Assembly: GCA_022508565.1 (NCBI GenBank)
Contig: JAFLUY010000001.1
Span: forward strand, 1 to 64,000
Direction of reading: 5' to 3'
DNA from: Erysipelotrichales bacterium
GTDB taxonomy: Bacteria; Bacillota_I; Bacilli_A; RF39; UBA660
Length of the DNA stretch: 64,000 bases
Positions within the stretch are counted from its first letter, which is position 1. Each line of letters opens with the position of its first letter. Under the pieces are notes generated by a model that was given only the letters and a program-made list of their open reading frames with translations, was not told the origin of the DNA and searched no databases. Position numbers and translations under genes: made by a program. Shown piece after piece: positions 14,815 through 50,977 of this stretch.

Positions 14815-14839
14815 AGACTAAGAATTTAGTCTTTTTTTG
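14815..14839 (+). terminator. Terminator after xseAB
   Basis: AAGACTAA / TTAGTCTT stem, GAAT loop, seven T. Confidence 0.85.
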
Positions 14840-14867
14840 TATAAATTTGTTATATTTTGGCACAATA
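14839..14867 (+). promoter_or_regulatory. Sigma-G-like promoter before spoIVB
   Basis: GTATA (14839-14843), a 17-nt spacer, and CACAATA (14861-14867). The B. subtilis forespore sigma-G consensus, as I recall it, is GHATR-17/18-CATWHTA; this has one mismatch (C for T) in the -10. The sequence continues TAAATGGTGG, as at three other sites in the window. Confidence 0.5.
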
Positions 14868-14881
14868 TAAATGGTGGTAGT

Positions 14882-15856
14882 ATGAAAAAAACAATAAAAA
14901 TGTTACTTATTTCACTATTATTATTTAGTCCAATAAATGTTTTAGCTTATTCAGATTATATAATACCTGGCGGAGAAAACGTAGGTATTGAAGTAAAATA
15001 TGAAGGAGTTTTGGTCATTGGTTTTTATAAAATAAATGATAAATATAATAAAAATGATATAGAGGTAGGAGATTATATTACTCATGTTGAAGATAAAGAA
15101 ATAAATACAATAGATGAGTTAGTAACTAATATTGAGAATTATCAGAAAGATGGTAAAGTTAATTTAACAATTAAAAGAGGAAACAAAACAAAAATAATTA
15201 ACTTTAATCTAGTATTAAAAGATAATGTCTATAAAACAGGTTTATATATAAAAGATTCAATTACTGGAATTGGAACACTTACATATATTGATCCAGACAC
15301 TGGTATTTATGGTGCTTTAGGTCATGAAATACTTGAGTCAACAACAAATAAACAAATTGAGGTAAGAAGTGGTTATATTTATCAAAGTGATGTTTCTAGT
15401 ATTGATAGATCAACTAATGGAAACCCAGGTACTAAAAATGCTAAATTTTTCTATAATAATAAATACGGAGATATTTTAAAAAATACAACCTATGGAATAT
15501 ATGGTAACTATAATTCTTTATCAAACAAAGACAAAGTTAAAGTAGCAGAACCAAGTGAAGTAAAAATAGGTGAAGCTACAATTCTTACTGTAACAGATGC
15601 ATCAACTGTAAAAGAATACAAAATAAACATTACCAAGGTTGATAAACAAGCAAAAATAAAAAATATTTATTTTGAAATAACAGATCAAGAGTTACTTGAA
15701 AAAACTGGTGGTATAGTTCAAGGAATGAGTGGTTCACCAATCATGCAAGATGGCAAAATAATAGGCGCTGTTACTCACGTAGTTGTTGAAAATGTCAAAA
15801 AAGGTTATGGTATATTTATAACTACTATGTTAACTGAAGGAGAAAGACAAGAGTAA
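14882..15856 (+). CDS. spoIVB: SpoIVB-type serine peptidase (S55)
   Basis: A 324-residue exported protease: signal peptide or anchor (residues 1-22, ending VLAYS), PDZ domain (about 35-110, GDYITHVEDKEI), then the S55 domain with His148 in GALGHEI and Ser285 in VQGMSGSPIMQDGKIIGAVTHV. Both catalytic residues are present. In spore formers SpoIVB is secreted from the forespore and starts pro-sigma-K processing. It is shorter than the B. subtilis protein (about 425 residues). Its usual neighbour spo0A is absent here. The ATG follows GGTGGT, and a frame extension upstream lacks a site. A sigma-G-like promoter lies just upstream. Confidence 0.88.
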   Translation: MKKTIKMLLISLLLFSPINVLAYSDYIIPGGENVGIEVKYEGVLVIGFYKINDKYNKNDIEVGDYITHVEDKEINTIDELVTNIENYQKDGKVNLTIKRGNKTKIINFNLVLKDNVYKTGLYIKDSITGIGTLTYIDPDTGIYGALGHEILESTTNKQIEVRSGYIYQSDVSSIDRSTNGNPGTKNAKFFYNNKYGDILKNTTYGIYGNYNSLSNKDKVKVAEPSEVKIGEATILTVTDASTVKEYKINITKVDKQAKIKNIYFEITDQELLEKTGGIVQGMSGSPIMQDGKIIGAVTHVVVENVKKGYGIFITTMLTEGERQE

Positions 15857-18234: not shown

Positions 18235-18335
18235 ATTTACATTATACTATAATATACATTTATTATTCAATATATTGGATGAAAATACTAACTAAATTGA
18301 GTATTTTATGTTAATATATTGACGAGGTGATATTT

Positions 18336-19526
18336 ATGGGTAAAATCATAATTATCAAATATGGAGAACTAACAACAAAAAAAGATAATATAAACTTTTT
18401 TATAACAACTTTAAAAGATAATTTAAAAATGTCTTTGGAAAACTTTGATACAGAAATAAAATATGATAAAGGTCGTATGTTTATTTATGCGGATGAATCT
18501 GTTATTGAAAGTGTAATAGAAAAATTAAAAAAGACATTTGGAATTCATGAAATAAATATAGGTTATGAAATTGATGATACTGATATCGAAGTTGTTAAAT
18601 CATCTTTACTTGAGCTTATTAAAGATAAGACATTTGAAACATTTAAAGTAGTAACTAAAAGAAGTGATAAGACTTATCCAATAAATTCTATGGAAATATC
18701 ACGTATTTTAGGTGGCGTAGTCTTAAAAAATAAAGACAATGTTAAAGTAGATGTTCATAATCCAAAAACTATTATCAATGTTGAGATAAGATTAAATAAA
18801 GCTTATATCTATTTTGATAAGATTGAAGGTATTGGTGGATATCCTGTAGGAGTTGCCGGAAAAGGTCTACTTATGTTATCAGGAGGAATTGATTCACCAG
18901 TTGCCGGATATTTAGCATTAAAAAGAGGAGTTAGGATTGAAGCCTTATATTTTGAAAGCCCTCCACATACTAGTGAGGCAGCAAAGAATAAAGTAATATC
19001 GCTTGCACGTGAATTATCTAAATATTCTGGTTATGTTAAATTACATGTTGTTAATTTTACTAAAATTCAAGAATCTATTTTAAAAAATTGTCCTCATGAA
19101 TATTTAATTACTATTATGAGAAGAATGATGTATAGAATTTCTGAATCAGTAGCTAAAAGAAATAATTGTAAAATAATTATTAATGGAGAATCAATTGGTC
19201 AAGTTGCCAGTCAAACATTAACTAGTATGGCTTCTATTAATGAAGTTGTTAGTATGCCAGTTATAAGACCAGTGGCATGTTTAGATAAGATTGATATAAT
19301 AGATATTGCTAAGAAAATAGAAACTTATGAAATCTCTATTCAGCCATATGAAGATTGTTGTACAATTTTTGTACCAGATCATCCGGTTATTAATCCGGTT
19401 TCAGGCCTTTGTGTCGAATATGAAAAAATGTTTAATTATGAAGAGTTAATTCGTGAAGCAATTAAAACTATTGAAACTATTAAAATAGAAGATAAAATAA
19501 GCGAAGAATTTGAGAGTATATTATAA
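18336..19526 (+). CDS. thiI: tRNA 4-thiouridine synthase ThiI
   Basis: A 396-residue ThiI: N-terminal ferredoxin-like and THUMP domains (about 1-165), then the adenylating PP-loop domain with LLMLSGGIDSPVAGYL (about 175-190), the ESIGQVASQT block, and the C-terminal CCTIFVPDHP segment. It adenylates U8 of tRNA and inserts sulfur. There is no C-terminal rhodanese domain, as is usual in Firmicutes, so sulfur comes from a separate cysteine desulfurase. The usual nifS-type neighbour is absent. ATG at 18336 follows GAGGTGATATTT; the upstream in-frame GTG is part of that site. Confidence 0.95.
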   Translation: MGKIIIIKYGELTTKKDNINFFITTLKDNLKMSLENFDTEIKYDKGRMFIYADESVIESVIEKLKKTFGIHEINIGYEIDDTDIEVVKSSLLELIKDKTFETFKVVTKRSDKTYPINSMEISRILGGVVLKNKDNVKVDVHNPKTIINVEIRLNKAYIYFDKIEGIGGYPVGVAGKGLLMLSGGIDSPVAGYLALKRGVRIEALYFESPPHTSEAAKNKVISLARELSKYSGYVKLHVVNFTKIQESILKNCPHEYLITIMRRMMYRISESVAKRNNCKIIINGESIGQVASQTLTSMASINEVVSMPVIRPVACLDKIDIIDIAKKIETYEISIQPYEDCCTIFVPDHPVINPVSGLCVEYEKMFNYEELIREAIKTIETIKIEDKISEEFESIL

Positions 19527-19591: not shown

Positions 19592-20101
19592 ATGAATATT
19601 AAGGTGGTTATAGTTTGGTCATTTGCCATTGTTTTATTATTTGGTCTAGGTCTACTAGGTTATTTAAACCAAGACATACTTTTATTTAAAGATGAGCCAT
19701 ATGTACCAATAGTTGATGAAGGAACTTCATCAGTTACATGTACTAATATTAAAGATGCATATGAAAGTACTTATAGATTCTCGCTTAAAAATGATGTTAT
19801 AGATAGAATATCTATTATCTATAAAAACAAGGAAGAAAATATTGATGCTTATACATCAGCATCAAATATTAATCAAGCAATTACATCAGAAAAACTTAAT
19901 GGTTTGAGTGCTTTAATGAGTGGAGGAACATCTGATTTTTCATTAACAGTAATAGTAAACCCAAGTGACTATAATAAAGCACGTGTTGAAGAAATGACAG
20001 AGGATTATAGTCGCATTCTCATGGTAATTGATTCAATTACTGATCTTGATTCATATAAACAAGCAATAAATCAAGATGGGAATACTTACACTTGCGAATA
20101 A
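19592..20101 (+). CDS. Membrane-anchored extracytoplasmic protein, unknown
   Basis: A 169-residue protein with one N-terminal membrane helix (residues 4-26) and an extracytoplasmic domain of about 140 residues bounded by two Cys (VTCTN near residue 50 and YTCE at the end) that could form a disulfide. No lipobox and no recognised family. The AGGTGATAAT site supports the start. The coding sequence ends at the -35 element of the sigma-G-like promoter of the next small gene. Confidence 0.65.
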   Translation: MNIKVVIVWSFAIVLLFGLGLLGYLNQDILLFKDEPYVPIVDEGTSSVTCTNIKDAYESTYRFSLKNDVIDRISIIYKNKEENIDAYTSASNINQAITSEKLNGLSALMSGGTSDFSLTVIVNPSDYNKARVEEMTEDYSRILMVIDSITDLDSYKQAINQDGNTYTCE

Positions 20102-20124
20102 AACGATTAATACTACCCATAATA
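20096..20124 (+). promoter_or_regulatory. Sigma-G-like promoter before 56-aa gene
   Basis: GAATA (20096-20100), 17-nt spacer, CATAATA (20118-20124). It matches the GHATR / CATWHTA forespore consensus fully. The -10 overlaps a CCAT-N7-ATGG dyad shared with two other sites in this window. Confidence 0.6.
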
Positions 20125-20139
20125 TAAATGGGTGATATT

Positions 20140-20310
20140 ATGTTTGAAAAAACAAGTGATATTAAAGATAAAAGTGAATACCAGAAAATTGTAAGTGATT
20201 ACAACAATAATTATGGTTTTAACTTTGGTATTAATACAATTACAAATAAAATACTCAAAGATAAATTTGACAATATTGGCAATAAAGAGTTAAGTATTAA
20301 AAAAAGATAA
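20140..20310 (+). CDS. Small protein (56 aa), possible sporulation gene
   Basis: ATG at 20140 after GGGTGATATT; an in-frame ATG at 20128 overlaps that site and is less likely. The 56-residue product is hydrophilic, rich in Asn, Lys, Asp and Ile, with no membrane helix. I cannot place it in a family, and it lacks clear small acid-soluble spore protein motifs. Its promoter matches the forespore sigma-G consensus, so expression late in sporulation is the best guess. Confidence 0.6.
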   Translation: MFEKTSDIKDKSEYQKIVSDYNNNYGFNFGINTITNKILKDKFDNIGNKELSIKKR

Positions 20311-20326
20311 ATGATATCTTTTTTTT
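20301..20326 (+). terminator. Terminator
   Basis: AAAAAGATA / TATCTTTTT stem with T run, spanning the stop codon of the 56-residue gene. Confidence 0.75.
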
Positions 20327-20369: not shown

Positions 20370-21569
20370 ATGAAAATATTAACAGTTAACGCTGGTAGTT
20401 CATCATTAAAATTTAATTGTATTGAACTTCCAAGTCAAGAAGAATTAATCAGTGGATATTTTGAGAAAATAGGAATGGATGGAAGTTTCTATAGCATCAA
20501 AATGAATGGAGAAAAAGTTAAAAAACAAGCTGAGTTAAAAGATCATACTGATGCAGTATCTTATTTAAAGCAAGAATTACTTGATAATAATATAGTTGTA
20601 TCTCTTGATGAAATTGATGGTGTAGGTCATCGTTTAGTACATGGAGGAGACAAATTTAAAGATTCTGTATTACTAACTGATGAAGTAATAAAAGAGTGTG
20701 AAAAATTTAATGATTTAGCACCACTTCATAATCCTGCAATGATTAAATGTATTGAAGCATTTAAAAGTGCACTTCCAGAAACTCCAATGGTAGGTGTATT
20801 TGATACTTCATTCCATCAAACAATTCCAGAAATCAATTATTTATACTCAGTACCTTATTCATGGTATAAAGATTTTGGAATTAGAAAATATGGTTTCCAT
20901 GGAACTAGTCATAAATATATAACTAAGACTATGAAAGAACTATTAGGTAAAGATAGCATTAATATTATTAACTGCCATATTGGTAGTGGAAGTAGTATTT
21001 GTTGTATTAAAGATAGTAAAAGTGTTGATACAACTATGGGATTCAGTCCAAATGCTGGATTAATCATGGGAACTCGTTCAGGTGATATTGATTATTCAGT
21101 TATCCCATTCTATATGAGTAAAACTGGTAAGTCTATTACTGAAGTTGATAATATTTTAAATAAAGAAAGTGGACTTTTAGGTATAAGCGAAAAGTATTCA
21201 GATCATCGTGATATTGAAGACGCTATGGCTGAAGGAGACGAAAAGTGTATTTTAGCTAATGATATGTGCGTTAAAAGAGTAGTTGATTATATTACTAAAT
21301 ATTATGTAGAATTAGAAGGAAATGTTGATGCTATCGTATTCACAGCTGGATTAGGAGAAAACGCTCGTGAATTTAGGGAGAGTATTATTAATAAATTAAA
21401 CTGCTTAGGAATCAAAATAGATGCAGAGGTAAACATGGGTATTGCTTCTTATAAAGATATTCATGAAGGAAAAATATCGGCTGCTGATTCTAAAGTTCCA
21501 GTTTATGTAATTCCTACAAACGAAGAATTAATGATTGCTTTAGATACATTTGAAATAATTAATAATTAA
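20370..21569 (+). CDS. ackA: Acetate kinase
   Basis: A 399-residue acetate kinase. It begins MKILTVNAGSSSLKFN (the N-terminal phosphate-binding strand of the ASKHA fold) and contains GHRLVHGG, VFDTSFHQT, RKYGFHGTSHKY, NCHIGSGSS, MGTRSGDID and FTAGLGENA. It makes ATP and acetate from acetyl phosphate. The 3' end is 22 bases from the nrnA start with no terminator between, so the two are probably co-transcribed. A TATAAT box lies at 20341 and the leader is short. Confidence 0.97.
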   Translation: MKILTVNAGSSSLKFNCIELPSQEELISGYFEKIGMDGSFYSIKMNGEKVKKQAELKDHTDAVSYLKQELLDNNIVVSLDEIDGVGHRLVHGGDKFKDSVLLTDEVIKECEKFNDLAPLHNPAMIKCIEAFKSALPETPMVGVFDTSFHQTIPEINYLYSVPYSWYKDFGIRKYGFHGTSHKYITKTMKELLGKDSINIINCHIGSGSSICCIKDSKSVDTTMGFSPNAGLIMGTRSGDIDYSVIPFYMSKTGKSITEVDNILNKESGLLGISEKYSDHRDIEDAMAEGDEKCILANDMCVKRVVDYITKYYVELEGNVDAIVFTAGLGENAREFRESIINKLNCLGIKIDAEVNMGIASYKDIHEGKISAADSKVPVYVIPTNEELMIALDTFEIINN

Positions 21570-40896: not shown

Positions 40897-40967
40897 ATTT
40901 ATTTAAAAGAAAAAGAAGACATTTTATCGATTGTTTGATAGAATATAGGCAATTGGGGCGAAATAAT

Positions 40968-43900
40968 ATGGCAAATACAAAGAAAAACACACAAAATGAA
41001 GATTATGATACTATCTTATCTGCTAGTTGCTTGCAAGATTATTTAAAAATTATCAAAAAAACAAAACCAGCTACTAGGAAAGAAAATGATGAGATGTTTT
41101 CTAAATATCAAAACGGCGATTTGGCAATCAAAGATTTAATAATTAAAAAGAATCTAAGTTTAGTAGTATCTATAGTGTTTGAAATTGGTGGAAATTTATC
41201 TGATGAACAAAAACTTGAATATATTGAAAGTGGAACTATCGGACTTATAGAAGCTGTTGATGCATTTGATCCAAGTAGAGGAACTGCTTTTTCAACCTAT
41301 GCAACATATTATATCGAAATGAGAATAAACAGTTACCGTTATCATAATAAACGTTTAATAAGAAGACCAGCTTATATGGAAGTAGCCTTAGCTAAATATA
41401 ATAGGTTGATAAGTGAATACGAAAAAGCTGGAAAACCATTACCATCTAGAGATGAAATTTGCACAATCCTTGAAATCTCCAAAGAAGTTTTAAAAAGAAT
41501 AGAAGAAGATTATAAATTAGAAGCAAGCAGTTTAGATGCAGCTGTCAAAAATGATGATGAAAAATCTGACGACCTAAGCGAGTTTGTAGGTGTAGAAGAA
41601 TCGGGCTTTAATTCTCTATTGGACGAAATAATTCTAGAAGAAATTATAAAAACTCTTAAATATAATACTAATGAATACGAATATTTTATTCTTTACTATA
41701 GAATGATAAGTTCAGAACAAAAATCTTGTGCTGAAATTGGAAATTACTTTGGTTTATCAAGAGTAGCAATTTATAATGTTGAGATGAAATTAAAATCAAA
41801 AATAAAAGAAATGTTTGATGAAAATCATGTTTTAAAAAGAGAATTTATAGATGAAGTAAAAATGAAGTTCCCATTTGAAAGTATTAAAGTTACTCCAACA
41901 TTATTAGAAAACTATACTTTGTATTTCTATTTAAGGGAAAATTTTTTTGCAAAAGATCAAATTATCTTAAAAGAAAAGTTAATTAGTAACCTTACTTTTG
42001 ATATTAGAAGAGTAGCATCTGAGATTATGGAAAGCGAAGAATATGTTCGTGAGAAAAGTATAGATATTGATAGACTTATCAGAAAAACTACAAATGATAT
42101 CCGCTACCAATTATTTTCTAATAACCTTATAAAAAGTTTAAAAAATAAAATATATTTTCTAGATTTAGATTCGGATTTAAGTGATTATTTTGATATAAGA
42201 AAAATAATAAATGATTATTGGCAAGATAAATCACTTAATGAAGTATTGGAAGCATCATCTTTATATAATATTCAAAGTGATGAAAATTTAATGAATTTAA
42301 TTAATAAGTTTTATGGGTTTGTTCCCAAAAAAGATATTAGCTTTAATAAGGAACGTTTAGAAAGAGATGTTAATTACAGTCTATATGGTTTTGCAAAAAA
42401 AGATTTGCCTATTGAAAAATTTTATTCAGCGTTTTTAGAAAATCAAAATAAATTTACTTCTAGAGAAAGAGACTTTTTAAATGCCTATATATTTAAAAAA
42501 GAAGAAGTATCTGAAGATCCTTCTAATTCATGTATGATCTATGATTCATCTGTAATTGATAAATTAGTTCTTCTTTACTATAAAACAGAAAATTATAAAA
42601 ATGATAATTTTAGTTTAGAAAAGTATAAGTTCGTGCGTGATGAATGTATGAATAATATAGGGGAAAGAGGAATTATGCTTCTAGATCTTTATTATGGCCT
42701 TAATGGGGATAGTATGCTGATTAGAGAAATGGCTGAATTTTTAAAAGAATATGAAGATGAAGTAGAAAAAGATTTTAGAAGAGCCAAAAATAATGCCATA
42801 TCAATATATCTCGGCACTAGTCAATATAGTTTTGAAAAAGATAAAGATATTTATGCAAGTATTTTAAATGACGAAAACTTTGTCTTAGGGAGTCCTCATT
42901 TGGAAATAGCTAAAATGTTTTTCTTAGATGGAAAAACGTATGATGAAATTGCAAATCTATATGAGATAACACCTAAGCTTACCCAAAGAAGAGTATCAGA
43001 GTTAAATAAATATGCATGCACAGTTATGGATTATTATCGCTTTGGTATTACAAGTACAAAAAAGAATTACCCAAAAGAATTTTTAATTAGTATTTTAAAT
43101 AAAACTGAATATGATGAAGAAATGAAAGATATTTTAACTACTTATATAGATAATAAAAGTTCTGTTATTACAGCAGAAATTTATCAAAAAGATCTTGAAG
43201 AAGTTCGAAATATCATAAGAAGATTTAATAATTTAGTTAATAAGATTGCTATTTCGGAAGTTGATGTAACTAAAGAAGATGTAGAAGCAGCTGTTTTAGA
43301 ACATGATTCAACAAATATATTAAGCGAAAGAGAAAGAATTATTCTCTCACTTAATTATGGTTTAAAAAACATATATAATCCATCTGGCAAAAAGAAATAT
43401 CCTATAGATATAGCAGAGCAATTGGAAATTAATAGTAATATTGGTTCTGTAATAAAAAAAGCCAAAGAACATGTATCTGCACACAAGTTAGGTCTATTAA
43501 AAACAGCAATAGATTTTATTGATCGTAATAAGTTAGAAACTGTGCTTAGAGATCAGAGACTACCATTAAATGAAGAAGATAAAAATATAATTATTAATGC
43601 TTATGGTTTATATGATACAGAGTATTTATCAATTAAAGAAATTTCTTTAAAGTATAATCTTAGAGAACCAATAGCAAGAAAAAGATTATATAGGGGGATA
43701 ATAACTATAAATAAATATCTAAATCAAGAAATTGATAAGGCAGTTTTATTTGAAGTAGACATAGAGCCTTATTTAAAATATTTTATTATAGAAGATAGGG
43801 AAATTTTAACTCTTTTATATAAAGATAAATTAACTCAATTAGAGATACAACAGAAATATAATCTATCCCATCATCAATTTGATCTTTTAATGCAAAAGAT

Positions 43901-44615
43901 GCTTATGCACTTAAGTGATTTAAAATCAGGTTTGGCAACTGGTATTGATTTTGATTATTTTTGGGATAATGCCCTAGAGGAAGATATACCATTTTATGGT
44001 AATAAAGAGTTAGCAGTTGAGTTATGTTTCTTACATTATGAAAAAAGATTGACGCGAAGTGATATTGTTAAATATCATCACCCAGAATTAAGTGACAACG
44101 CAGTAGGTGAGTTGATAAGATCATTTACCGTTGCAATTATCAAACATCAACATGGTATAAGAAAAGCAAATGATTTTTCTTATGAGGAAGTTGCTGATTA
44201 TTACAATAGACATAAAGATAGTCTTGGAGCTGTTAATACAAAGATTTATGGACTTTATTTCAAGAAAGTTCAAAAAAATGGTCCTTTTGCTAAAATACGA
44301 CCAAGAAAACTTATTACATATGATTTAATAAAGGAAAAATTCCCTGATCATTTTAGATTAGATAATACTAATCCAGATCAAGTAAGAGAAATTTTAGGTG
44401 ATTATGGAGATACGCTTTCGGAAGAGTCAAGAGAAACTCTAGAATCGTTATTTGGTGTAACCCATGCTAATTTGTTAAGTGATGAAGAATGGGAGCAAAT
44501 TATTAATTTCTTAGGATTTCTTCAAATAAGGATTGAAAAAGATAATCAAAAAATAAAAAAAGATGTTTTAGAAGAAAGTAATAAAACAAAAAAGAGAAAA
44601 GAATTAAAACAGTAA
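40968..44615 (+). CDS. Giant sigma-70-family protein with repeated sigma-4-like modules
   Basis: A 1215-residue protein. Residues about 20-60 match sigma region 1.2 (YL..I...AT..E, then AIKDLIIKKN). Residues 60-138 are a full region 2 (LSLVVSIVFEIGG, GTIGLIEAVDAFDPSRGTAF, STYATYYIEMRIN, RLIRRPAYM). Region 3-like 158-182 and sigma-4-like 230-282 (IGNYFGLSRVAIYNVEMKL) follow. Then come further helix-turn-helix-like units near 564-612, 642-684, 783-842 (LSERERIILSLNYGL), 866-918, 941-983 and 1012-1057, ending in a Lys-rich tail. Primary sigma factors are 350-600 residues. It is monocistronic and intact. Promoter recognition is plausible but untested; the repeats could bind several -35 sites or partners. 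Confidence 0.8.
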   Translation: MANTKKNTQNEDYDTILSASCLQDYLKIIKKTKPATRKENDEMFSKYQNGDLAIKDLIIKKNLSLVVSIVFEIGGNLSDEQKLEYIESGTIGLIEAVDAFDPSRGTAFSTYATYYIEMRINSYRYHNKRLIRRPAYMEVALAKYNRLISEYEKAGKPLPSRDEICTILEISKEVLKRIEEDYKLEASSLDAAVKNDDEKSDDLSEFVGVEESGFNSLLDEIILEEIIKTLKYNTNEYEYFILYYRMISSEQKSCAEIGNYFGLSRVAIYNVEMKLKSKIKEMFDENHVLKREFIDEVKMKFPFESIKVTPTLLENYTLYFYLRENFFAKDQIILKEKLISNLTFDIRRVASEIMESEEYVREKSIDIDRLIRKTTNDIRYQLFSNNLIKSLKNKIYFLDLDSDLSDYFDIRKIINDYWQDKSLNEVLEASSLYNIQSDENLMNLINKFYGFVPKKDISFNKERLERDVNYSLYGFAKKDLPIEKFYSAFLENQNKFTSRERDFLNAYIFKKEEVSEDPSNSCMIYDSSVIDKLVLLYYKTENYKNDNFSLEKYKFVRDECMNNIGERGIMLLDLYYGLNGDSMLIREMAEFLKEYEDEVEKDFRRAKNNAISIYLGTSQYSFEKDKDIYASILNDENFVLGSPHLEIAKMFFLDGKTYDEIANLYEITPKLTQRRVSELNKYACTVMDYYRFGITSTKKNYPKEFLISILNKTEYDEEMKDILTTYIDNKSSVITAEIYQKDLEEVRNIIRRFNNLVNKIAISEVDVTKEDVEAAVLEHDSTNILSERERIILSLNYGLKNIYNPSGKKKYPIDIAEQLEINSNIGSVIKKAKEHVSAHKLGLLKTAIDFIDRNKLETVLRDQRLPLNEEDKNIIINAYGLYDTEYLSIKEISLKYNLREPIARKRLYRGIITINKYLNQEIDKAVLFEVDIEPYLKYFIIEDREILTLLYKDKLTQLEIQQKYNLSHHQFDLLMQKMLMHLSDLKSGLATGIDFDYFWDNALEEDIPFYGNKELAVELCFLHYEKRLTRSDIVKYHHPELSDNAVGELIRSFTVAIIKHQHGIRKANDFSYEEVADYYNRHKDSLGAVNTKIYGLYFKKVQKNGPFAKIRPRKLITYDLIKEKFPDHFRLDNTNPDQVREILGDYGDTLSEESRETLESLFGVTHANLLSDEEWEQIINFLGFLQIRIEKDNQKIKKDVLEESNKTKKRKELKQ

Positions 44616-46677: not shown

Positions 46678-46712
46678 AAAAAGACAGCTTATAAATGAAG
46701 TTGTCTTTTTGT
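46678..46712 (+). terminator. Terminator
   Basis: AAAAAGACAGCTT / AAGTTGTCTTTTT 13-bp stem with one G-T pair. Confidence 0.8.
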
Positions 46713-46739
46713 TTGTATTTTTAATTTTCAACCATAATA
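46711..46739 (+). promoter_or_regulatory. Possible sigma-G-like promoter before oxidoreductase
   Basis: GTTTG (one mismatch to GHATR), 17-nt spacer, CATAATA (46733-46739, full match). The -10 lies in a CCAT-N7-ATGG dyad as at 20117 and 50815. The weakest of the four. Confidence 0.4.
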
Positions 46740-46753
46740 TTAATGGTGATATT

Positions 46754-48196
46754 ATGGAAAGCAAAAGTGTTTGGAAAATAAATGAAGCGAATGACTTCAA
46801 ATCGTTAAACAGAAGTATAAATGTTGATATAGCTATTATTGGTGGTGGAATAACTGGTTTATCATGTGCTTATTTTTTAAAAGATGAAAAATTTAAAGTA
46901 GCCTTATTTGAAAAAGATAAACTTTATTCATCAGTTACAGCTAGAACAACAGGAAAAATAACATTTTTACAACAAGGTCTTTTAACAAAAATTAAACACA
47001 TTTATAACACCAATACGGCTATTTCATATTATAATTCTCAAAAAGAAGCAATTAATATTCTTGATAGCATTATAAAAAAGGAAAATATTGACTGTGATCT
47101 AAAAAAGGTTAGCAGTTATTATTTTACAAATGATAAAGCTAAAGTTAAAAAAATTAAAGAAGAAAAAGATATTTTAGAAAGATGTGGAGAAGAAGTAACT
47201 TATAATTATAATTTACCTGATGGATTAAACCTTGAATTTGGTATAAGTTGTGATAATACTTATGTTTTTAATCCAACAAAGTATTTGAATTCTTTAAGTC
47301 AGATTATAAAAGATAAAATAAGTATTTATGAAAATAGTAATGTAACTAAAATTAATAGATTAGATAATCATTTTGAATTAATTGTTAATAATCATAAAGT
47401 AAAGTGTAAGAAAGTCATTATAGCCTCACACTATCCATACTTTTTATTTCCATATCTTATGCCGCTTAAGTGTTATTTGGAAAAGTCATATATCGGAGCA
47501 TACAAAGATGAAAGTGACATAAACTTTAGTGCCATTAATGAAGGCAAACCAACTTTATCAATAAGATATGTTGAAGATGATATTCTCTATAAACTAATAC
47601 TTACTAATTCAGATAATTTGGCTATTAATAGTAATGATCAAAAAAACTTTTCCGTACTTATGCAAGGGAAACCATCATACCTTTGGTCAAATGTTGATAT
47701 AATAACTAAAGATTATATGCCGTATATTGGTGCAATTGAAGAAAACTTATATATTGCAACTGGTTACAATACTTGGGGAATGACTAATGGAACTTTAGCA
47801 GGTTCTATTATAAAAGACATAATTATGAATAAAGATAATGAATATATTAAATTATTTTCTGCCAAAAGGCATGATAACTTAAATACTCTAATTAGATATC
47901 CCTTATTTATTGCATCGAGTGCATATTCATTTATATCATCAAAATTAGTGAAAAATAAATCATGGTATAAAAGCAATATAGAATTTAAAAAGATAAATGG
48001 TGAGAATGTTGGCATTTATCATGATGAAAATGGTGCTTATTATATAGTTAAAAATAAGTGTCCACATCTAGGTTGTAGTTTGATATTTAATGAAATAGAA
48101 AAAACATGGGATTGTCCATGTCATGGTTCTCGTTTTGACCTATCGGGTAAGTCAATTTGTGGTCCAGCTAATTATGATATAACTTTTAAAGAATAA
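46754..48196 (+). CDS. FAD-dependent oxidoreductase with C-terminal Rieske domain
   Basis: A 480-residue protein. Residues about 20-375 are a DAO-type FAD domain (IAIIGGGITGLSCAYFL dinucleotide site, then TARTTGKITFLQQGL, and IATGYNTWGMTNGT near its end). Residues about 400-480 are a Rieske [2Fe-2S] domain with CPHLGCSL and CPCHGSRF ligands (CxH...CxxH). This fusion is known in Bacillus (YhfW-like) and its substrate is undefined. The Rieske cluster could pass electrons to FAD. ATG at 46754 follows GGTGATATT. The promoter is sigma-G-like, suggesting late-sporulation expression, by inference. Confidence 0.87.
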   Translation: MESKSVWKINEANDFKSLNRSINVDIAIIGGGITGLSCAYFLKDEKFKVALFEKDKLYSSVTARTTGKITFLQQGLLTKIKHIYNTNTAISYYNSQKEAINILDSIIKKENIDCDLKKVSSYYFTNDKAKVKKIKEEKDILERCGEEVTYNYNLPDGLNLEFGISCDNTYVFNPTKYLNSLSQIIKDKISIYENSNVTKINRLDNHFELIVNNHKVKCKKVIIASHYPYFLFPYLMPLKCYLEKSYIGAYKDESDINFSAINEGKPTLSIRYVEDDILYKLILTNSDNLAINSNDQKNFSVLMQGKPSYLWSNVDIITKDYMPYIGAIEENLYIATGYNTWGMTNGTLAGSIIKDIIMNKDNEYIKLFSAKRHDNLNTLIRYPLFIASSAYSFISSKLVKNKSWYKSNIEFKKINGENVGIYHDENGAYYIVKNKCPHLGCSLIFNEIEKTWDCPCHGSRFDLSGKSICGPANYDITFKE

Positions 48197-48634: not shown

Positions 48635-50812
48635 ATGAACTACATCAAGGGAAAATATAAAAATTCAATATTTACATCTGAATCCGGCTATACAGTTGGT
48701 CTTTTTCGTTGCAAGGAATCTGATGTCGAAGAAGATTTAGTAAATAAGACTATTACGTTCACCGGTTTTTTTCCTGAGCTTAATACTGAAGATACCTATA
48801 TTTTTTATGGCAATTATATTTATCATGAAAGATACGGATATCAATTTCAAGTAAGTGAATATGAAAGAATTGAACCAGAGGGAAAAGATGCAGTAGTTGA
48901 ATTTTTAAGTTCATCATTTGTTAAAGGTTGTGGAGAAAAAACAGCCAAGAGAATTGTTGATACTTTAGGAGATCAAGCAATCGCATTGATTAAGGAAGAT
49001 AAAAATAATCTTCTTAAATGTAAAATATCAGTTCTTTCTGCTGAAAAAATATATAATTCAATCATTTCCTACTATGATTCTGATGAATTAATAATATATT
49101 TAAAAGGCCTAGGTTTTTCAGTTAAAGAAATAACAAGAATAATAAGTCTTTATGGCAACAATGTCAAAAAAATAATAGAAAATGATTTATATTCTCTAGT
49201 TGACTTTATCGAATTTGCCAAAATTGATAAAGTATATTTTAAAGTCTTTGAAGAAACTAATGATATGAGACGACTTGCGTGTATAATTGAAGCAATGAAA
49301 AGACTTACTTTTGAATTGGGTGACACATATTCATATAAGGAAGAAATATATCAATATGTCCTAGCTAATTTCAAGATCGATTTATATGATTCTTTTGATG
49401 AATTAGCTTTTAATTTAAGTGAAGTAGGTAAAATAAAAATAGTTGATAACAAATATTATTTATATGATGTTTATTGTGATGAATTATATATTAGGGATTC
49501 ATTATTTACACTTGCAAGTTCTGATACTAGAATGATTAATAGCTTTGATGATTATTTAGCATCAATTGAAAGAGAATTTGATATTACTTATAATGACGAA
49601 CAAAAGAAAGCTATAAAAGAAGTACTAAATAATTCTTTAACAATAATAACAGGTGGTCCAGGTACTGGAAAAACGACAATTATTAATGGTTTAATTCGAA
49701 TGTATCAATATATCAATAATTTAACTGGTCTTCAAATGGGGAGAAAAGTAGCACTACTTGCGCCAACCGGAAGAGCAAGTAAAAGAATGAGTGAGACCAC
49801 TAACTTTGGAGCATCAACTATTCATAGATATCTAAAATGGAATCATGAAACGAAAGCTTTCGGCGTTAATGAACTTAATAAAAATGAACATGAATTTATT
49901 ATAGTTGATGAAACAAGTATGGTTGACAATGAGTTGCTTGCAAATCTTTTAAGAGGAATTCACCATAATGTAAAAATTGTATTCGTAGGTGATGAACACC
50001 AATTACCATCCGTTGGTCCAGGAAATATTTTAAAAGACATAATTGCATCAGATATGTTTGCTCATGTACGTCTTTCAAATATTTACCGTCAAAGCGAAAA
50101 CTCTTATATTCCTGTTTTGGCAAGTGAGATAAAAAATGTTTCAGATTCAATTGATTTAGAAAATAAAAAAGATGATTATAACTTCTTAAAGTGTGATCGC
50201 ATGAATGTTAAAAGCATGTTAAAAACTATTATTAATAGATGTATCGATAAAGGTTTAGATGAAAAGGAAATTCAAGTGCTTGCTCCAATGTATAAGGGTG
50301 AAAATGGAATTGATAATCTTAACTTTATCTTACAAGATTTATTTAATCCGCCATCTTTAAAGTTAAATGAAGTTCATATTGGTAGTATAATTTATCGTGA
50401 AAACGATAAGATAATAAATTTAGTCAACAATATTGATCAAAATATATTTAATGGAGATATAGGTTATATTGAAAGTATAAATACGAATAAATCATCAGAA
50501 TTTATGAAAATAAATTTTTATGGTAATCATGTAACTATAAAAAAAGAAGAAGTTCCAACCATTAGACATGCTTATGCGATGAGCATTCATAAAAGTCAGG
50601 GTAGTGAATTTAATCATGTCATAATTCCAATGACAAAAGAATATAATAGAATGCTTTACAATAAGCTTCTATACACAGGAGTATCTCGTGCTAAAAAATC
50701 TCTTGTTATAATTGGAGATCCAGAAGCATTTACATATGCCGTTAATAATTCTTATAGCAAAGAAAGAAAAACCTCATTAACTGAATTAATAATGAATAAA
50801 TATCGAAATTAA
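48635..50812 (+). CDS. recD2: RecD2-type ATP-dependent DNA helicase
   Basis: A 725-residue SF1B helicase of the RecD2/TraA type. It has an N-terminal OB-like domain (about 1-85), HhH segments (about 90-200), Walker A TGGPGTGKTT (about residue 341), motif II VDETSMVDNEL, GDEHQLPSVGPGN, and motif VI-region AYAMSIHKSQGSEF and YTGVSRAKKS. It unwinds DNA 5' to 3', with roles in repair when RecB and RecC are absent. It is monocistronic. Confidence 0.95.
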   Translation: MNYIKGKYKNSIFTSESGYTVGLFRCKESDVEEDLVNKTITFTGFFPELNTEDTYIFYGNYIYHERYGYQFQVSEYERIEPEGKDAVVEFLSSSFVKGCGEKTAKRIVDTLGDQAIALIKEDKNNLLKCKISVLSAEKIYNSIISYYDSDELIIYLKGLGFSVKEITRIISLYGNNVKKIIENDLYSLVDFIEFAKIDKVYFKVFEETNDMRRLACIIEAMKRLTFELGDTYSYKEEIYQYVLANFKIDLYDSFDELAFNLSEVGKIKIVDNKYYLYDVYCDELYIRDSLFTLASSDTRMINSFDDYLASIEREFDITYNDEQKKAIKEVLNNSLTIITGGPGTGKTTIINGLIRMYQYINNLTGLQMGRKVALLAPTGRASKRMSETTNFGASTIHRYLKWNHETKAFGVNELNKNEHEFIIVDETSMVDNELLANLLRGIHHNVKIVFVGDEHQLPSVGPGNILKDIIASDMFAHVRLSNIYRQSENSYIPVLASEIKNVSDSIDLENKKDDYNFLKCDRMNVKSMLKTIINRCIDKGLDEKEIQVLAPMYKGENGIDNLNFILQDLFNPPSLKLNEVHIGSIIYRENDKIINLVNNIDQNIFNGDIGYIESINTNKSSEFMKINFYGNHVTIKKEEVPTIRHAYAMSIHKSQGSEFNHVIIPMTKEYNRMLYNKLLYTGVSRAKKSLVIIGDPEAFTYAVNNSYSKERKTSLTELIMNKYRN

Positions 50813-50822
50813 GTCCATACTA
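50793..50822 (+). promoter_or_regulatory. Sigma-G-like promoter before 45-aa membrane protein
   Basis: TGAATA (50793-50798), 17-nt spacer, CATACTA (50816-50822). This equals the B. subtilis sigma-G consensus TGAATA / CATACTA as I recall it, with no mismatch. The -35 lies inside the end of recD2. Confidence 0.65.
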
Positions 50823-50839
50823 TAAATGGAGGTTATACG

Positions 50840-50977
50840 ATGAAAAAAATAATGAGTGCAATAACTTTATCTACAACCTTAGGTTGTATTGCTGCAGCCA
50901 GCTATATGATGATGAAAAAGAAAAATAAAAACATGTTAGATATTATTATTGAAGAAATAGAAACAGTAAAACAATAA
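50840..50977 (+). CDS. Small membrane protein (45 aa), possible sporulation gene
   Basis: ATG at 50840 after GGAGGTTATACG. The 45-residue product has a membrane helix (about 5-25, AITLSTTLGCIAAASYMMM), a Lys cluster (KKKNKN) and an amphipathic acidic end (MLDIIIEEIETVKQ). The topology is probably N-out/C-in. No family recognised. Forespore-type promoter and a shared terminator support it as a real gene. Confidence 0.7.
   Translation: MKKIMSAITLSTTLGCIAAASYMMMKKKNKNMLDIIIEEIETVKQ

Follow-up and report, generated by a model that had tools for sequence, protein, structure and literature searches.

Do four promoter-like sites scattered over 64,000 nucleotides of contig JAFLUY010000001.1 (the whole stretch analyzed, here called the window) belong to a forespore regulon, and what do the genes behind them do? 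A first-pass annotation had proposed that they resemble sigma-G promoters and mark an overlooked sporulation regulon, with a repressor operator as the alternative, since three of the sites share a CCAT-N7-ATGG dyad. By direct reading and a scan of the window, we confirmed the four sites and their 17-bp spacers at the positions below, and also the dyad at three of them (the 56-aa, Rieske, and 45-aa genes).

14839..14867, + strand: sigma-G-type promoter of spoIVB; GTATA (14839-14843), 17 bp, CACAATA (14861-14867); ATG at 14882
14882..15856, + strand: spoIVB, SpoIVB peptidase S55 with PDZ, 324 aa (PF05580, E 4e-73; TIGR02860, 303 bits)
20096..20124, + strand: sigma-G-type promoter of a 56-aa gene; GAATA (20096-20100), 17 bp, CATAATA (20118-20124); ATG at 20140
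46711..46739, + strand: sigma-G-type promoter with a weak -35, FAD/Rieske gene; GTTTG (46711-46715), 17 bp, CATAATA (46733-46739); ATG at 46754
46754..48196, + strand: FAD oxidoreductase with C-terminal Rieske domain, YhfW-like, 480 aa (PF01266, E 4e-28; PF00355, E 6e-14)
50793..50822, + strand: sigma-G-type promoter of a 45-aa gene, kept in congener G021; TGAATA (50793-50798), 17 bp, CATACTA (50816-50822); ATG at 50840
50840..50977, + strand: 45-aa protein downstream of recD2 (homologue in congener G021)

Sigma-G-type promoters in the window and across the family

All four sites read CAYAMTA-TWAATGG, followed immediately by the SD and start codon. Within the window, which has a GC content of 27%, our scan found CAYAMTA with a close SD and start codon at precisely these four sites, and the remaining CAYAMTA sites carried no SD tag. 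The spacer of B. subtilis sigma-G promoters is 17 or 18 bp long. The -10 box (CAWAMTA/CATWHTA) is exact at three sites and differs by one base at spoIVB (CACAATA), and a GNATA -35 element stands at 17 to 18 bp before the spoIVB, 56-aa, and 45-aa genes, with the Rieske GTTTG being off consensus. These boxes directly match the B. subtilis SigG consensus GNATA/CAWAMTA, as given in the portion of PMC3416734 available to us, where the SigF consensus is GTATA/GGNAANAMTR.

In the assembly to which the window belongs (1.69 Mb, 37 contigs), the pattern CATAMTA-N3-7-GGNG-N4-12-ATG matched 7 times, including 3 matches in the window, versus 2 for the reversed pattern; one of the 7 heads a gene for a 36-aa basic peptide and one heads no long frame. 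Elsewhere in this genome, the motif heads spoVAC, followed by spoVAD and spoVAE (both named from their sequences), a DUF5698 gene with cotJ-like genes nearby, and, from the family-wide pattern scan, a LysM/amidase_3 gene.

Searching 41 family genomes without regard to genes, we obtained 152 matches to CATAMTA-N4-8-GGTGA-N2-7-ATG in 36 of them (one site being counted twice), versus 4 for the reversed pattern. Because reversal destroys the SD and is therefore too weak a control by itself, we added a permuted -10 box (CTAAMTA), which matched 24 times in 19 of the 41 genomes. We read 137 distinct site-protein rows and kept 128 after dropping 9 that encode fewer than 25 residues; among the matches listed, those outside the 137 rows comprise six at Rieske genes, two at spoIVB, two at genes of the 56-aa protein's family (YGYN, below), and six in G002/G017. 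A K-H-A-T-R -35 element, for which the pattern does not select, lay at exactly 17 bp in 49 of the 128 sites, versus a mean of 3.5 sites over 24 other offsets.

We clustered the genes behind the family matches with blastp and ran one representative per named cluster against Pfam. The clusters among the 128 were DUF421/YetF (20), SpoVAC/AEB (10), UvdE (6), SpoIID domain (5), DUF5698 (5), ABC_trans_CmpB (5), GerA (4), the 56-aa family (4), FAD/Rieske (3), FtsW/RodA (3), SSPI (2), and DUF1540 (2); many singletons are unnamed, and some have no obvious spore role. The enrichment at sporulation genes that the annotation had anticipated was thus borne out, in that matches found blind to genes cluster at spore genes. 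Nor was the motif equally at home before housekeeping genes: the permuted-control sites (20 of 24, judged by reading) sit before unrelated genes, and K-H-A-T-R occurred in 0 of the 13 that were readable for it. Many canonical SASPs of the family, which serve as an independent positive control, have a GTATG-17-CATTCTA promoter.

Locus by locus, CATAMTA occurs at most 60 nt upstream of spoIVB at 20 of 29 family loci, versus 1 of 29 for the reversed upstream sequence (one of 30 loci, where the contig begins at the gene, was omitted), and upstream of the FAD/Rieske gene at 15 of 30, versus 0 of 30. Neither the 56-aa nor the 45-aa product has a confident Pfam match; judged from its sequence, the latter is probably a single-span membrane protein, and G040 encodes a similarly built 55-aa protein with a sigma-G promoter, also beside recD2. 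In about a dozen genera (L059, L063-L065, L068, L070, L072, L075, L077-L079), a conserved ATAATGTAGTCTGTRA-like element lies between the spoIVB -10 box and the SD, possibly a regulator site or a leader element.

Given the 152 matches versus 24 for the permuted box, the unselected -35 at 17 bp, and the spore genes downstream, the sites lie beyond chance, and we conclude with high confidence that those of the window are sigma-G-type forespore promoters. The same three lines of evidence make it extremely improbable that they are ordinary SigA (or other) promoters, alike through A/T richness and a fixed SD distance, even though the window's base composition and the TATAAT-like cores inside CATAATA would suit that explanation. 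A closer competitor, though still an unlikely one, is that SigF rather than SigG reads the window promoters. The consulted part of PMC3416734 assigns both spoIVB and yhfW of B. subtilis to SigF, and TGGCACAATA at spoIVB matches the SigF box GGNAANAMTR at 8 of 10 positions; SigF may also act at spoIVB. Against SigF as the general reader, GG is not enriched at -3/-2 among the 128 sites (G at 15% and 12%), C at -1 together with CATAMTA fits SigG, and classical SigG genes (SASPs, spoVA) carry the same type of box.

The repressor operator suggested by the annotation is very unlikely. In its favor are the dyad at three of the four window sites and a co-occurrence of C at -1 with ATGG that is slightly above expectation in the family (20 versus 14.4, p = 0.03). 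Yet the distance from the -10 box to GGTGA varies from 4 to 8 nt, the -10 box and the SD account for the two dyad halves, and one-sided changes at the 56-aa gene keep G.U pairs, unlike a DNA palindrome. A general operator is therefore unsupported, and at the 56-aa gene the dyad behaves as an RNA hairpin.

The annotation had also left room for sigF and sigG to be missing from the genome, and relatives of both were found. A SigG relative lies at C35:42522 (best NCBIfam match SigG, 337 bits, under the curated cut-off of 372), and a short sigma factor adjoining a SpoIIAA-like protein scores about 100 bits against the SigB/F/G (cut-off 234) and SigF (cut-off 321) models. SigE is encoded beside SpoIIGA, whose match is below its curated cut-off, and SigK is also present. 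Since most scores fall under curated cut-offs, these assignments are based on best match and neighborhood. At locus L324 (G000:C18, 88-1028), a SpoIIAA-like gene is directly followed by a SigF-like gene, with no SpoIIAB between them. This fits the pattern of PMC10868615, which, in the part accessible to us, predicts that members of the uncultured order RF39 form spores, with spoIIAB reduced or absent and spoIIGA present. The window itself holds a 1226-aa ORF (40935-44615, + strand) whose residues ~28-300 match sigma-70 of the RpoS/RpoD type (102 bits), followed by ~900 residues without a family match, save for a stretch near residue 954 that weakly resembles sigma region 4.

In our model, RNA polymerase with SigG would bind K-H-A-T-R and CATAMTA 17 bp apart and start transcription about 7 nt downstream of the -10 box, so that the mRNA would begin almost at the SD; both the binding and the start point are deduced from the promoter letters. 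In the forespore this would switch on spoIVB, which signals to the mother cell, the YhfW-like oxidoreductase, the recD2-linked small membrane protein, and the 56-aa protein. The regulon shares with that of B. subtilis both the GNATA/CAWAMTA promoter (PMC3416734) and the targets spoIVB, spoVA, ger, and ssp. It differs in belonging to an uncultured Bacilli family, in having promoters that abut the SD, and in a SASP/GPR part that is lost or altered in the window's genus. Forespore Rieske enzymes have a precedent as well: the part of PMC3416734 that we consulted already lists B. subtilis yhfW, an FAD/Rieske gene, as SigF controlled; the excerpt of PMC7317962 at hand reports that deleting yhfW slows germination. 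The two enzymes share FAD/Rieske domain architecture, on which the likeness rests, and forespore control, although the promoter is of SigF type there and has a SigG-like box here.

The forespore regulon claimed by the annotation is therefore real, but it is the known one in an unstudied family and was not overlooked. It is a well-supported sigma-G regulon of an ordinary kind in an uncultured family of gut Bacilli, with an unexpected twist at the 56-aa gene, which is the new part. The promoters supply a sequence rule for the forespore regulon of a large uncultured family, which helps to predict spore formation without culture.

The 56-aa gene at a SASP locus

The neighborhood of the 56-aa gene raises the possibility that its product is related to the SASPs.

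18327..19526, + strand: thiI, syntenic anchor (PF02568)
19592..20101, + strand: 169-aa gene between thiI and the 56-aa gene (no Pfam match)
20140..20310, + strand: 56-aa YGYN family protein, candidate diverged alpha/beta SASP (synteny; hhalign to SASPs)
20299..20325, + strand: possible terminator after the 56-aa gene, A/T-rich stem with T-rich 3' arm (fold), unflagged by the consensus terminator scan
20370..21569, + strand: acetate kinase-type gene, second anchor (position and sequence), which we take to be ackA

In 21 family genomes, a canonical alpha/beta SASP lies directly after thiI. A 47-67-aa protein stands there instead, or beside thiI, in the window's genus (eight readable genomes; in a ninth the contig ends within thiI) and in G007, G020, G024, G029, and G034. 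In G012 a homologue adjoins ackA, which brings the genomes with a thiI- or ackA-linked protein of this kind to 14. The hallmark of the family, with exceptions, is [YF]-x-N-x-YG[YF]N-[LIF]. CATAATA precedes the gene in the eight genus genomes read and in G024 and G029, and the 169-aa gene occupies the same place in those eight but is absent there in G020, G024, and G029. At L169 (G083), a 56-aa homologue has AATATA after the SD rather than an in-frame ATG; either a rare start codon or decay of the gene may explain this.

Canonical SASPs and GPR are both missing from the genus by our searches: none of the 9 genus genomes gave a SASP with PF00269, which matched in 8 of 10 other family genomes, and the GPR search came up empty in the same 9 but matched in 24 of 28 others. 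A GPR match was present in all 21 genomes with a thiI-linked SASP, partial in G008 and G013. Among the 13 YGYN genomes searched for GPR (of 14, G034 being left out), 10 had none (G007, G024, and the window's genus) and 3 had a weak partial match (G012, G020, and G029). G005 and G011 showed neither a SASP nor a YGYN protein next to thiI and gave no GPR match. The weak GPR-like proteins of YGYN genomes (L226 in G012:C22, G020:C6, and G029:C1) may be GPRs in the course of being lost; the gene of the one in G012 is preceded by a sigma-G-type promoter.

We compared a profile of the 14 YGYN sequences with 41 SASPs, a target picked through synteny rather than a library search. The hhalign score was 26.9 (E 4.2e-5), with the alignment spanning about 27 columns at the end of helix 1, where a segment of the 56-aa protein matches the SASP stretch KYEIANELGVNLG. 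Column shuffles of the profile averaged 8.3, and 0 of 600 reached the observed score. The six members from outside the genus scored 25.6 by themselves (0 of 600 shuffles) and the eight genus members 17.8 (0 of 400), and a 10-member profile was weaker (2 of 500). A second conserved SASP motif, GSVGGEITKRLV (GSVGGEITKR), falls outside the aligned columns. AlphaFold models of the 56-aa protein were too poor (pLDDT 58-60) to support a fold search; a PDB search with the YGYN profile gave no match. SASPs carry the GPR cleavage motif E-I/F-A, which is absent from the YGYN proteins. With E values allowed up to 10, PF00269 still matched neither the 56-aa protein nor any of eight relatives, and by membership the protein does not count as a SASP.

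Two readings of these results compete. We lean slightly toward the 56-aa protein being a strongly diverged alpha/beta SASP. With the alpha/beta SASPs (SspA-D; PDB 2Z3X), the YGYN proteins share the thiI-linked locus, a sigma-G promoter, and the end of helix 1, with [KR]YE..NE[YF]G.N[LI] in the out-of-genus members; they differ in lacking the second motif, the E-I-A GPR site, and a PF00269 match and in having an N terminus of their own. A serious contender is that the SASP gene gave way here to the gene of a small forespore protein unrelated to SASPs. Displacement would account for a similarity confined to some 27 columns, for the YYK..D motif at the N terminus, and for the silence of Pfam, but it sits poorly with the likeness of out-of-genus KYEYFNEYGYNFD to SASP KYEIANEFGVNLG and with a score that none of the 600 shuffles attained. 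If the protein is a diverged SASP, this putative SASP would hold the SASP locus and keep the helix-1 end without the GPR cleavage motif, and its binding to DNA is so far a prediction.

A bolder and less likely reading is that spore DNA packaging in the genus has passed from the canonical SASP/GPR pair to a fast-changing, GPR-independent SASP derivative, the YGYN family, which an RNA lock with part of the -10 box as its loop, described below, would keep out of growing cells. The locus may show what becomes of a spore DNA-packing protein after loss of the protease that removes it during germination. In the portions available to us, PMC3533761 describes SASP genes as easily lost, and PMC10868615 infers by reconstruction that every SASP had disappeared at an ancestral node, with which our clear PF00269 matches conflict if the family lies below that node. 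Among the papers listed by our open-licence searches on SASP loss or divergence, no title or abstract start described YGYN proteins.

A hairpin around the -10 box of the 56-aa gene

The dyad at the 56-aa gene forms part of a longer structure.

20108..20140, + strand: hairpin around the -10 box (fold -12.4 kcal/mol, z -3.6, 0 of 200 shuffles)

Its core stem pairs 20114-20120 with 20128-20134 and takes in the SD, GGGTGA (20130-20135). All eight genus genomes show a 6-12-bp hairpin here, with the bulk of the -10 box in its loop and the SD in its 3' arm; in G020, G024, and G029, which lack the upstream 169-aa gene, the hairpin is absent. Across the eight, 87.5% of cells are paired, versus 37.5-51.3% when partners are slid by 1-3 columns. 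Five of the twelve pairs have changed on both sides and all one-sided changes lead to G.U, counts that come from eight related sequences, which are few, and from a structure drawn from one of them. This tolerance of G.U favors RNA over a DNA operator.

The left arm lies ahead of the predicted SigG start point and would be missing from a SigG transcript, so that folding would be open to read-through mRNA alone. In the genus with the upstream 169-aa gene, the hairpin may thus stop translation from read-through mRNA, so that the protein would be made only from the SigG transcript; we entertain this reading while stopping short of favoring it, as both the block and the SigG start point are predictions from sequence. 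We doubt that the hairpin serves the 169-aa gene as a weak intrinsic terminator and is no lock on the ribosome site. The consensus scan does flag it as terminator-like, but congeners such as G078, G079, and G081 have no T run 3' of the stem, and all eight genus genomes place the SD within it. Should the lock be real, the gene would provide an uncomplicated case, backed by covariation, in which a developmental promoter also serves as a translational lock.

We also considered such a dyad or lock for the family as a whole and rejected it. Pairing was as good with arms swapped between sites as with the native arms (mean stem 5.31 against 5.24, with 46 of 200 swaps reaching it), complementarity between the -10 box and the start codon was not above shuffles (300 of 2000), and SD accessibility was the same with swapped upstream sequence (p = 0.98). 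Stems of at least 8 were in slight excess across the family sites (10 versus 3.9).

A literature search on promoter-loop hairpins surfaced the B. subtilis sigG case (PMC5942855). There too, in the part of the paper available to us, a proposed hairpin would keep read-through mRNA from being translated, and it cannot form in the mRNA that starts at the gene's own sporulation promoter. Compared with that account, the hairpin described here belongs to another gene, has a shorter stem of 6-12 bp, is found in this genus only, and has part of the -10 box itself as its loop.
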